From: Bacteroidales bacterium
GTDB lineage: Bacteria > Bacteroidota > Bacteroidia > Bacteroidales > UBA932
NCBI GenBank assembly: GCA_017429885.1
Contig: JAFROA010000214.1
Location: forward strand, 1-16,828
Length of the DNA: 16,828 nt
Reading direction: 5' to 3'
In this document: one piece after another, positions 1 to 4,854 of the stretch
Position numbering within the stretch: position 1 is the stretch's first letter
Layout: the number at the start of each line of letters is the position of its first letter
Made by a program: the position numbers and the translations under genes
Notes under the pieces: generated by a model
The model's database searches: none
Told to the model about the DNA's origin: nothing
The model's input: only the letters and a program-made list of their open reading frames with translations

Positions 1-729
1 AATATTGCCAACTCATGAGACATACGAAAAAGTACTCATGCAGACAATTGATACTATCACATAATATGTATAACTCCGCATGCAATAATCAAAGCATGCT
101 GATGATATCGATTAAAACTAATAGAATATATAAACCAACACCCTAACAATAATTATATGATTAGTTGTGCTGATGATGGACTTTGAGGTGATTCTCCCGA
201 ACAATTACAAAGCAACCCCAATTATAAAGCATTACAAGATATCCTTGATAAGGAAAATGTTATTACAAATACCATGTCATCCAACAAAAATCCTCAATAT
301 TTTATGATATTAAATGAACTATCAACTCCAGAATCTGGATGAACATACTTATCTGCATCTGTAAATAGTGGGAAAAACAATAAGAACACTATTGTCTGAT
401 ATAATCCCAATCTAAATAATATTTTCTTAGATGATAATGGAAGTAAATTACCTAAATGATTATTTTGAAAATGAAATATCATATTACCATTCATACAATT
501 AATACAAATAAATTGAGATGACATTTCCGACACAACTTCATCCTATTCTACTGCAGCAGCAAGTAGTACTCAATGAAATTTCTTATCTATCCTTAAATCT
601 AACTATCCTTGAACTACTTTAGAAGATGCTAATACTATCCTAATCAATAAATACTATATTGAACAACCTTATTACTACAAAGATACTGATTGATCTATTA
701 AAGAATGAGGTAAATGGTATTTCATTGAC
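1..729 (+). CDS. Partial protein in TGA-recoded (code 25-like) frame
   Basis: The frame starting at base 1 is open with no TAA or TAG, although the DNA is very AT-rich and the other + frames contain many stops. It carries 15 in-frame TGA codons (codons 6, 17, 34, 35, 62, 114, 133, 153, 156, 158, 172, 192, 204, 231, 236). Read as Gly they give plausible protein, such as DGSIKEGGKWYF, YPGTTLED and CADDGLGGD; six GGN codons are also used. TGG occurs once, so reading TGA as Trp would make the protein implausibly Trp-rich. This matches code 25 of Absconditabacteria and Gracilibacteria. The product is rich in Asn, Tyr, Ser and Thr, which suggests an exported protein, but I do not recognise the family. 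No start is visible, so it is truncated at the left edge. Its own C-terminus is replaced by GC-rich sequence near 716-735. A tRNA-Gly(UCA) is not in the window. Confidence 0.7.
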
Positions 730-1077
730 GTGGAGAAGTTCCTGGAGGAGGAAGTGTTGAGGAAGTCGGTGATACAGAAGGCGATAGATTCTTCGGCTCC
801 GCCTCAGAATGACATCGCTTTGCCGTCGGGAGCGGGACTGTGCTACAGCGGGATGGGGATAATGTTCGAGGTGGAGGGCCAGAGTTACACGATGACCGAG
901 GCCAACAGGCACACCCTTGAGGAGGCCGTGAGATCAGGCAAGGAAATTTCCTGGACCTGGAGCAAGACCCTCTCCCTCAAGCAAGGCGGCTCCGCCACTC
1001 CCAGTTTCGAAGTCTGTTATCTCGACACCAAGGCCAGGATCATCCCCGACCTCTGTTTTTCGGTTGAATTGAAATAA
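730..1077 (+). CDS. Hypothetical protein, C-terminal part, probably 5'-truncated
   Basis: This is a GC-rich frame of 115 residues in the same frame as the recoded stretch upstream. It contains no TGA and ends in TAA. GTG at 730 is the first usable start on this side of the composition change, but it is probably an internal codon of a gene whose 5' end was lost at the junction. The protein has a charged helical start (EKFLEEEVLRKSVIQKA), a middle with PSGAGLCYSGMGIMFE, and a beta-rich end (EISWTWSKTLSLKQGG, then IIPDLCFSVELK). There is no signal peptide or membrane segment. I do not recognise the family. Codon use resembles the genes to the right, so it belongs to the Bacteroidales part. A palindromic repeat starts directly after the stop codon. 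Confidence 0.5.
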   Translation: MEKFLEEEVLRKSVIQKAIDSSAPPQNDIALPSGAGLCYSGMGIMFEVEGQSYTMTEANRHTLEEAVRSGKEISWTWSKTLSLKQGGSATPSFEVCYLDTKARIIPDLCFSVELK

Positions 1078-3213: not shown

Positions 3214-4854
3214 TCACAAAGAGCTTTCTGTGAAGGAGCCGAGGGCGAGGTACTTTTTGTAAAGATCCGCGTAAACGGCTCCTCGGGCGGGGTCGGGAAT
3301 ATATTCCTTCGAAAAACCGGAGCTCATGGCTGCGGACGCGTCCTCGACCTTCTCATAGACTCCAGCGGCGGTGGCGGCGAACATAGCCGCGCCAAGGGCA
3401 CAGGCCTGCATGGTCTTGCAGACCTTGATAGGCTTGCCGAGCACGTCGGCCATCACCTGCATCACGAAAGGAGACTTGAGGGCGATTCCGCCTATTCCGA
3501 TAACCTCCTCTATCTGAACGCCTTCCTCTACGAAGCGGTCATGGATGGCTTTCGTGCCGAAAGCCGTCGCCTCGACAAGGGCCCTGAATATCATCGGAGC
3601 CGTAGTGCCGAGAGTGAAGCCCGTGATAGCGCCTTTAACCAGAGGATTGGCGTCCGGTGTGCGCCGGCCGTTGACCCAGTCGGTGGCCAGCATGGCGCTC
3701 TGGGAGACCGGAACCTTCTCCGCCTCAGCGGTTAACGAAGGGATGATATTCTCGCAAGCCTCAACCAAAGCATCCCCTTCAAGACCGGAAACCGCGCGGA
3801 GAGGCCACTCCAGAACCTTTCTGAACATGGCATAGACATCCCCGAAACTGGACTGGCCAGCTTCAAGACCTATCATGCCGGGAATAACCGAACCGTCCAC
3901 CTGGCCGCATATTCCCCGGATACATTTGTCCCCGATCTCCTCGTAAGGAACGACCATCACATCGCAGGTCGAGGTTCCGATAACCCTGACAAGAGACCCG
4001 GGCTTGACACCGGCTCCGACCGCACCCATGTGGCAGTCGAAAGCTCCGCCGGCGACCACGACACTAACGCTCAGCCCCAGCCTCGCCGCCCACTCGGGAC
4101 AGAGATAACCCACGGGCTTATCGGCTGTCTCAGTCTTGTCGAAGAGCTTTGCCCTCCAACCTGCCAGAATGGGATCAACACCAGCGAGGAACTCCTCGGG
4201 GGGCAGTCCACCCCACTTGGCGCTCCACATGGACTTATGGCCCTGGGCGCAGCGGCTGCGGACGATGTCCCGATGGTTGGTGACCCCGGTCAAGACAGCC
4301 GGAAGCCACTCGCAACACTCCACGATCGTGCTGGCCTTCGTGGCTATCTCCGGCGAGTTTCTAAGGATATGCAAAGCCTTGGCCCAGAACCACTCGGAAC
4401 TGTAGATACCGCCCTCGTACATGGAATAATCCACATCGGAAGCCTTGCAGGCGGCGTTGATCTCCTCTGCCTCTTTGATTGCAGTATGGTCTTTCCAAAG
4501 AACGAACATAGCGTCCGGATCGGCGGCATATTCCTCGCTCATGGCGAGCGGAGTACCTGTCGCGTCGGCGAATGCCGGAGTGGAACCCGTTGTGTCAAAG
4601 GCTATTCCGACAACATTAGGGGCCACTTCCGGGGCGCATTTTGACAACGCGTCCTTAACCGTGAATTCCAGAACCTCAAGGTAATCCTTGGGATGCTGAC
4701 GCCACTGATTCGCCTGCGGGTCGCAAAAAAGGCCCCTGGACCAACGAGGATAATTCTTGACGCTGGAGGCGAGGATCTCCCACGTCTCAGCGTTGACCAC
4801 GACCGCCCTCGCGGAATCGGTGCCGTAGTCCAGTCCGATGACGTATCTTGCCAT
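3214..4854 (-). CDS. araB: Ribulokinase
   Basis: L-ribulokinase phosphorylates L-ribulose with ATP to give L-ribulose 5-phosphate in the cytoplasm. The protein has 546 residues (E. coli AraB has 566) and the FGGY-kinase layout: the N-terminal phosphate-binding segment VIGLDYGTDSARAVVV at residues 5-20, the GGAFDCHMGAVGAG segment at 269-282 with the probable catalytic base D273, and the C-terminal ATP-binding segment GIGGIALKSPFVMQVMADVLG at 453-473. The stretch between is typical of ribulokinases, with EWFWAKALHIL and GHKSMWSAKWGGLP. The ATG at 4854 lies 1 nt after the araA stop codon, so the two are cotranscribed and probably translationally coupled. It is the last gene of the operon, followed by repeats and a hairpin. 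I see no missing key residue. Confidence 0.97.
   Translation of the reverse strand: MARYVIGLDYGTDSARAVVVNAETWEILASSVKNYPRWSRGLFCDPQANQWRQHPKDYLEVLEFTVKDALSKCAPEVAPNVVGIAFDTTGSTPAFADATGTPLAMSEEYAADPDAMFVLWKDHTAIKEAEEINAACKASDVDYSMYEGGIYSSEWFWAKALHILRNSPEIATKASTIVECCEWLPAVLTGVTNHRDIVRSRCAQGHKSMWSAKWGGLPPEEFLAGVDPILAGWRAKLFDKTETADKPVGYLCPEWAARLGLSVSVVVAGGAFDCHMGAVGAGVKPGSLVRVIGTSTCDVMVVPYEEIGDKCIRGICGQVDGSVIPGMIGLEAGQSSFGDVYAMFRKVLEWPLRAVSGLEGDALVEACENIIPSLTAEAEKVPVSQSAMLATDWVNGRRTPDANPLVKGAITGFTLGTTAPMIFRALVEATAFGTKAIHDRFVEEGVQIEEVIGIGGIALKSPFVMQVMADVLGKPIKVCKTMQACALGAAMFAATAAGVYEKVEDASAAMSSGFSKEYIPDPARGAVYADLYKKYLALGSFTESSL

Follow-up and report, generated by a model that had tools for sequence, protein, structure and literature searches.

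Codon reassignment is usually regarded as something that concerns an entire genome, or else a phage, and crAss-like and other phages encode suppressor tRNAs that read a stop codon in the element's own genes. Absconditabacteria (SR1) read UGA as glycine and CGA/CGG as tryptophan, as described in passages of PMC8629427. Allo-tRNAs and selC* tRNAs, some of the latter with a UCA anticodon (Mukai 2017, via passages of PMC7609411), are long-armed tRNAs with an acceptor branch of the 8/4 or 9/3 type and with serine (allo) or cysteine (selC*) identity (PMC7609411, same passages). In engineered genetic code-locking, which is synthetic, a refactored code is tied to particular genes and essential genes are locked (PMC12269064). 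The locus described here resembles the Absconditabacteria code in combining UGA for glycine with a putative use of CGA/CGG for tryptophan and in the tRNA identity marks (PMC8629427, in part), whereas that code is genome-wide and this one concerns only some genes, in genomes that possess RF2 and use the standard code; the tRNAs of the cassette have long variable arms. It differs from suppressor-tRNA phages in residing on bacterial chromosomes, in probably involving a sense codon as well and in having no match among the phage records and viral contigs searched. Long arms are shared with allo- and selC* tRNAs, from which the cassette tRNAs differ in their 7/5 stems and Gly or Trp marks, and a code tied to particular genes is shared with code-locking, but the present one occurs in nature and within a single locus. 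Searches of open-licence PMC papers turned up no account of a locus of this kind.

The window, i.e. the whole stretch of 16,828 bases analysed, is contig C169 of a genome consisting of 466 contigs and 2.24 Mb (68% complete, 0.5% contaminated). Judging from sequence comparison and predicted structure, it probably opens with the 3′ part of a gene written in a locus-restricted (“private”) code in a standard-code member of the Bacteroidales. Frame 1 of positions 1–729 comprises 243 codons including no TAA, no TAG, 15 TGA, six GGN and one TGG, which reproduces the counts given in an earlier note on this DNA. None of 20,000 first-order Markov sequences with matched dinucleotide make-up had this frame free of TAA and TAG, and the remaining five frames of 1–729 contain 9–19 such codons each. 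The GC content is 23–33% in 120-base windows up to position 720 and mostly 52–58% across 721–1200, and all 15 TGA codons of the gene lie inside codons 6–236. The protein that the earlier note had placed at 1–729 is real as a recoded frame, as supported by the Markov test and by homologues, but its extent had to be corrected, as the same register stays open beyond 729 up to a TAA codon, giving 358 aa (Table 1). The homologous family can be aligned across the composition break through to the frame end, and because the alignment with homologue P0002 does so, position 729 represents a composition border, not the end of the gene. By its homologues, the gene appears to encode a lipoprotein with the N-terminus outside the window.

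Table 1 Features of the recoded gene, its surroundings and related loci
Feature	Location	Strand	Description
Recoded secreted-lipoprotein gene	1–1077	+	358 codons, TAA stop at 1075–1077; 5′ end lost at contig edge
Reassigned codons of this gene	within 1–1077	+	TGA = Gly (15); CGA probably Trp (codons 9, 37); meanings suggested by homologues
AT-rich, TGA-rich part	1–720	+	GC3 about 0.20; most of the predicted subtilisin-fold domain; change point at codon 240/241
Candidate catalytic residues	within 1–720	+	His codon 13, Ser codon 181; conserved columns
GC-rich C-terminal part	721–1077	+	GC3 about 0.77; TGA-free, without CGA/CGG, codon style that of the host
MNT nucleotidyltransferase/HEPN toxin–antitoxin-type pair	1197–1915	−	adjoins the recoded gene
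Arabinose operon	window contig		FGGY kinase, araA, sodium:solute symporter
L036	47,888-base contig		Prevotellaceae bacterium UBA4372
L037	4,404-base contig		Bacteroidales bacterium UBA1392
Broken UCG tRNA-like copy	L020:131–225		mismatched 5′ acceptor strand; CGA in the adjoining recoded gene ambiguous
Recoded genes beside the RNase III-like gene			in L036, L020 and L047; two in tandem in L046; three in tandem in L049; cut by contig end in L048 and L050

Beyond the recoded gene the contig carries ordinary table-11 genes, namely the MNT/HEPN pair, an HTH protein and the arabinose operon, whose araA shows 75% identity to Bacteroides finegoldii, with the next record below 50% (plasmid collection). 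A TGA stop is used by one of the eight mechanically called long ORFs of the window outside 1–1100 and by 16 of the 50 mechanically called host ORFs of all loci together. A match to RF2 (prfB) was found in 10/10 genomes (G000 and 9/9 cassette genomes), nine of them above the cut-off; the match in G668 consists of two pieces, both under it. Genomes of Absconditabacteria and Gracilibacteria, with UGA read as glycine genome-wide, have no RF2; here prfB is present and TGA stops are used. The SR1/Gracilibacteria source proposed in the earlier note was therefore abandoned in view of the standard-code genes on the contig, araA, RF2 in the genome, the TGA-ended ORF and the Bacteroidales relatives. Judging from araA and the named relatives, the contig looks like standard-code Bacteroidales, and the recoding is restricted to particular genes and does not extend to the whole genome. 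An MNT/HEPN pair occurs near the recoded gene both in the window and in L037, which was taken as chance, the HEPN proteins having no similarity and the MNT proteins 26% identity. Short interspersed CTTCGGCTCCGCCTCAGAATGACA-like repeats at 776–834 and 1074–1130 of the window are common to other contigs of the genome and of the genus.

A protein search with the window query returned P0002 (64% identity, full coverage of 1–729) and P0003, and then P0004–P0009. P0002 has W in 12 of the 15 columns where the window has TGA, which we interpret as TGA having been translated under code 4 in the gene call. The two sequences are nearly identical in blocks (37/40 residues at the start and 59/60 at 181–240, W at TGA counted as a match), are 25–75% identical between these blocks and 20–60% identical past the composition border, a pattern which points to recombination among copies. 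In a sample of 151 genomes of the genus the window protein was matched in two, the window's own and G147. An earlier genome-contig scan with the window protein matched 32 stretches with none confirmed, and a scan with the family alignment (X-masked rows) confirmed two of 161 candidate stretches, L036 and L037. The family alignment had no match beyond the window's own genome in 393 genomes of the order, and nothing was confirmed in the viral contigs scanned. In phage and plasmid records neither homologue P0010 nor the RNase III-like protein described below was matched, and 1–729, compared with phage records, had no match there. The recoded family found no match in a PDB sequence search, and PADLOC matched neither the recoded nor the RNase III-like protein.

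Counted from the chosen start codon, the frames of L020 (from G147), L036 and L037 contain 11, 28 and 24 TGA codons, respectively. Their genes share one architecture comprising a GC-rich signal peptide and Ig-like part, an AT-rich and TGA-rich middle and a GC-rich end, and the same mosaic was seen across the MAGs of L020, L036, L037, L046 and L047 and clearly in one of the three genes of L049. In P0010 numbering, the AT-rich segment begins at residues 232–281 in 6/9 genes and ends at residues 474–556 in 9/10, to be compared with the limits of the subtilisin domain at 237–548. That AT-rich/GC-rich borders recur close to these domain limits from one genome to another speaks against the left end being SR1/Gracilibacteria DNA misassembled onto, or binned with, a Bacteroidales contig, an explanation that would suit the abrupt GC change within the window gene and the occurrence of UGA for glycine with CGA/CGG for tryptophan in Absconditabacteria (PMC8629427, in part). 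The near-identical blocks shared with P0002, which reach the junction and give way to divergence, would fit it too; past the junction P0002 has W at six of the eight GGN columns of the window, so its C-terminus seems TGA-rich as well. The family alignment, however, crosses the junction into the GC-rich tail, cassettes lie on longer contigs such as a 160 kb contig of G085, and both stretches confirmed in the scan come from records named Bacteroidales or Prevotellaceae. Such a chimera or contamination is highly improbable and was rejected, given the same architecture in L020, L036, L037, L046, L047 and L049. The contigs of L048 (position 6307) and L050 (position 4208) break off in a recoded gene, either ahead of its AT-rich part or just where that part begins, and strain variation or repeats perhaps break assemblies within the recoded gene in these two loci and in the window. 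Positions 1–150 of L036 encode the C-terminus of another copy of the gene, identical in protein sequence to the corresponding stretch of the first copy, so that the recoded genes stand in tandem.

The meaning of the reassigned codons was assessed with BLOSUM log-odds within subfamilies for ten related genes. This tally replaced a first one with both subfamilies in one alignment, which had lacked sharpness (Gly 0.32 and then Ser 0.11 as partners of TGA; no clear residue for CGA). The 115 testable TGA codons gave 83.2 for Gly, −0.4 for Ser as the next residue and −49.9 for Trp, the window's own (12 of 15 testable) gave 6.8 for Gly and 1.4 for Ser as the next, and the controls behaved as expected (GGN as G, TGG as W, CGY and AGR as R). 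On the evidence of homologous columns, UGA is thus shown to be read as glycine in the recoded genes, and the assignment made in the earlier note, to be checked by whether TGA columns hold glycine or tryptophan, was confirmed.

For CGA the values are modest, with Trp 6.4, Gly 1.3 and Arg −5.2 outside L020 (n = 11) and Trp 2.6 when L020 is included (n = 18). The seven testable CGA codons of L020, where the UCG tRNA is broken, favour no residue (Trp −3.8, Arg −1.2). CGA stands opposite TGG in 3/5 cases at one column and 5/5 at another for L047, and in 2/2 cases for L036. The seven testable CGA/CGG codons of L049, from a genome in which no UCG tRNA was found by pattern, gave Leu 1.5, Met 1.2, Arg 0.3 and Trp −3.5, which argues that they do not encode tryptophan. 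CGG is absent from the genes accompanied by a UCG tRNA. It is probable, mainly from three columns, that CGA means tryptophan where the UCG tRNA exists.

A private code predicts avoidance of CGA/CGG in the GC-rich parts of the recoded genes, and this is what was observed: of the Arg-type codons, CGA and CGG make up 0/47 in a set of seven genes (window, L020, L036, L037, L046a, L046b and L047, no tRNAs being visible for the window and L037), 0/36 in the five genes for which a UCG tRNA is visible and 0/26 in the four for which it is intact. The 50 host ORFs have 352/1305 (p = 7e-7, 2e-5 and 5e-4 against the three counts, respectively), the recoded genes of L049 have 7/35 (p = 0.002, 0.005 and 0.02), and three RNase III-like genes have 35/120. 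None of the ten recoded genes ends in TGA, which was not counted as evidence, since the frames had been defined by reading through TGA.

In L036 the recoded gene is followed by three tRNAs of 92–94 nt (UCA, CCG, UCG) and then by the gene for a 333-aa RNase III-like/dsRBD protein. The latter was found in 7/400 genomes of the genus and in 2/393 genomes of the order, belonging to other families. A database search yielded at least 269 proteins at E ≤ 1e-5 (7,997 candidates scored); those with an organism name, among the 120 matches listed, are from Bacteroidaceae, Prevotella and Bacteroidales. Ten loci with this gene were compared (L036, L020, L046–L051, L054 and L055). The gene is accompanied by tRNA(UCA) in nine of them, the exception being L020, whose contig starts 230 bases before the gene, and by tRNA(UCG) in eight (not L049 or L051), including the broken copy of L020. 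TGA-recoded lipoprotein-type genes adjoin it in seven of the ten loci. The contig of L051 ends within the RNase III-like gene, and in L055 the tRNAs and this gene are present with no recoded gene recognised. In L049, situated in the 160 kb contig mentioned above, the RNase III-like gene and tRNA(UCA) are accompanied by three recoded genes. Ten neighbouring proteins were scanned, with Pfam matches for six including GH120, GH97, acetylesterase-type and GH109 proteins, and the GH120/GH97/GH109-type neighbours are a Bacteroidales-like setting.

In the window's own genome (68% complete, the contig being cut inside the gene), the RNase III-like gene was not found, nor were tRNA(UCA) and tRNA(UCG) by pattern (for UCA, a D-arm pattern). 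There is no tRNA on the short contig of L037, and no UCG tRNA was found by pattern in G085 (92% complete) and G063. RNA model R1 had matches in 390/395 genomes of the phylum, those listed being mostly ordinary tRNAs of 72–74 nt, and was uninformative on the cassette. The diverged cassette of L054 has an additional third, degenerate tRNA-like sequence, and the same locus contains a different candidate recoded secreted protein at 1893–2639 (249 codons, three TGA, one CGA/CGG). An abiF RNA element is located near the cassette of L036, at 3874–3910.

The nine tRNA(UCA) sequences aligned have 27 consensus pairs, 11 of which show double-sided changes, and covariation gives them 7/5 acceptor/T stems with a long variable arm. 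The marks of tRNA-Gly(UCA), i.e. G1:C72, C2:G71, G3:C70 and U73, are present in 9/9 sequences from related loci. The UCG/CCG tRNAs likewise have 7/5 stems by covariation and long variable arms, and eight of the nine aligned are intact. A20 is an arginine mark in tRNA. All eight intact UCG/CCG tRNAs have C or U in its place, together with G73 and A/G1:U72, as is characteristic of tRNA-Trp. The Gly and Trp identity rules used here are those given in passages of PMC8629427. Going by these marks, the cassette appears to carry the same reassignment set as Absconditabacteria.

ARAGORN labels tRNA(UCA) as tRNA-SeC, and one survey reports suppressor tRNAs, read as nonsense suppression, in 0.3% of its standard-code genomes (PMC13092985, in part). 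Both would be in line with tRNA(UCA) having no connection with the recoded genes and being instead a selenocysteine tRNA or a general suppressor of nonsense codons. This is very improbable in view of its Gly marks and its 7/5 stems, in place of the elongated acceptor branch of selenocysteine tRNA; moreover, recoded genes adjoin in seven of the ten loci, TGA columns hold glycine, and for the tRNA(UCA) of L036 the general tRNA family is the top-scoring one of its clan. The 7/5 stems also set it apart from allo-tRNAs, defined by an 8/4 or 9/3 branch and serine identity.

In the RNase III-like protein the signature motif reads NxRxxFxGM in 7/7 aligned members, against ETLEFLGDAL in Aquifex RNase III (1i4s, 1jfz; a weak PDB match, E 0.4), with the catalytic Glu/Asp of the motif apparently absent in all seven; the second acidic motif of RNase III lies beyond the aligned range of this match. 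Pfam Ribonucleas_3_3 matches 7/7 members at E ≤ 1, the first member under its cut-off. The AF2 model is weak (mean pLDDT 59.4), its usable parts being only the dsRBD and a long basic helix. Because the signature acidic residues are absent in the seven members, the protein probably does not cleave RNA, and with its dsRBD and long basic helix it may bind the cassette tRNAs.

In all eight complete recoded genes a TGA occurs among the first 14 codons, and in five of them it is codon 3 (start codons chosen by hand); the cut genes of L048 and L050 have an MRg start too. The TGA:GGN ratio is 8:4 in the signal region versus 16:114 downstream to codon 250 (p = 7e-5), the two being split at the first Cys, whereby the TGA of L046b was counted downstream. 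From this early-TGA excess we infer selection for dependence on tRNA(UCA). With an early TGA in every complete gene, translation should abort without the tRNA. That the hosts retain RF2 and end long ORFs in TGA would also agree with dead genes from a code-25 donor, in which TGA codons are plain stops and no product is made. It is, however, very unlikely that the genes are dead, since ten divergent frames are free of TAA, TAG and frameshifts across the whole homologous length (the frames were chosen as open, the point being length and alignment), the cognate tRNAs are conserved with compensatory changes, and the early TGA is kept even in L049a, although this gene has only five TGA in 789 codons.

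According to the private-code explanation, the AT-rich middle and one codon near the gene start would use UGA for glycine and, in most loci, CGA would probably be used for tryptophan. Host GlyRS and TrpRS presumably charge the cassette tRNAs, whose competitors would be RF2 at UGA codons and tRNA-Arg at CGA/CGG codons. With a UGA so close to the start, expression would be all-or-none, as in the absence of tRNA-Gly(UCA) release would occur after about 2–13 residues and no secreted fragment would be formed. The RNase III-like protein would most likely bind the long-armed tRNAs or their precursor and regulate how much of them is available, so that less harm is done at the UGA stops and the CGA/CGG Arg codons of the host. 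A point against the explanation is that tRNA(UCA) would be expected to cause read-through at UGA stops of host genes.

We lean slightly towards a wider proposal of two codes in one bacterium, in which a portable chromosomal locus, equipped with class II-like tRNAs of its own and with a pseudo-RNase III, would confine UGA as glycine and CGA/CGG as tryptophan to a small number of genes for surface proteins. An early UGA would lock these genes, which would be expressible only where the code is supplied. Such a locus would be the equivalent in nature of engineered code-locking, and it may have passed between phyla along with its code. Because the code is shared, an Absconditabacteria-like donor is suggested for the middle domain and the tRNAs, with the GC-rich host parts fused or ameliorated around them; the cassette code may also have arisen independently. 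If true, a cellular locus with stop and probably sense reassignment and its own tRNAs would mean that codes are modular and transferable, and would provide a testable route for how codon reassignment starts. It is also suggested that genes of this kind, when they lie in standard-code genomes, escape the pipelines used for gene calling and for inferring the code.

The gene family appears from its sequences to encode a surface lipoprotein with a signal peptide, one or more Ig-like domains, a subtilisin-fold domain and a C-terminal domain. Read with TGA as glycine and CGA as tryptophan, P0010 gave a predicted fold with a mean pLDDT of 82.5, the middle of which (residues 237–548) has the subtilisin fold of Peptidase S8 and served as the model for positions 1–720 of the window. 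The likeness to Peptidase S8 (subtilases) lies in this fold, whereas the recoded domain shows 7–16% identity among the matches listed. In the triad columns His is invariant and Glu stands at the presumed Asp position; the presumed catalytic Ser is invariant in nine rows of the window's subfamily but not across both subfamilies aligned together. Protease activity is uncertain, because the catalytic Asp of subtilisins appears to be replaced by Glu; the encoded protein probably acts at the cell surface, either as a protease or as a binding protein derived from one.
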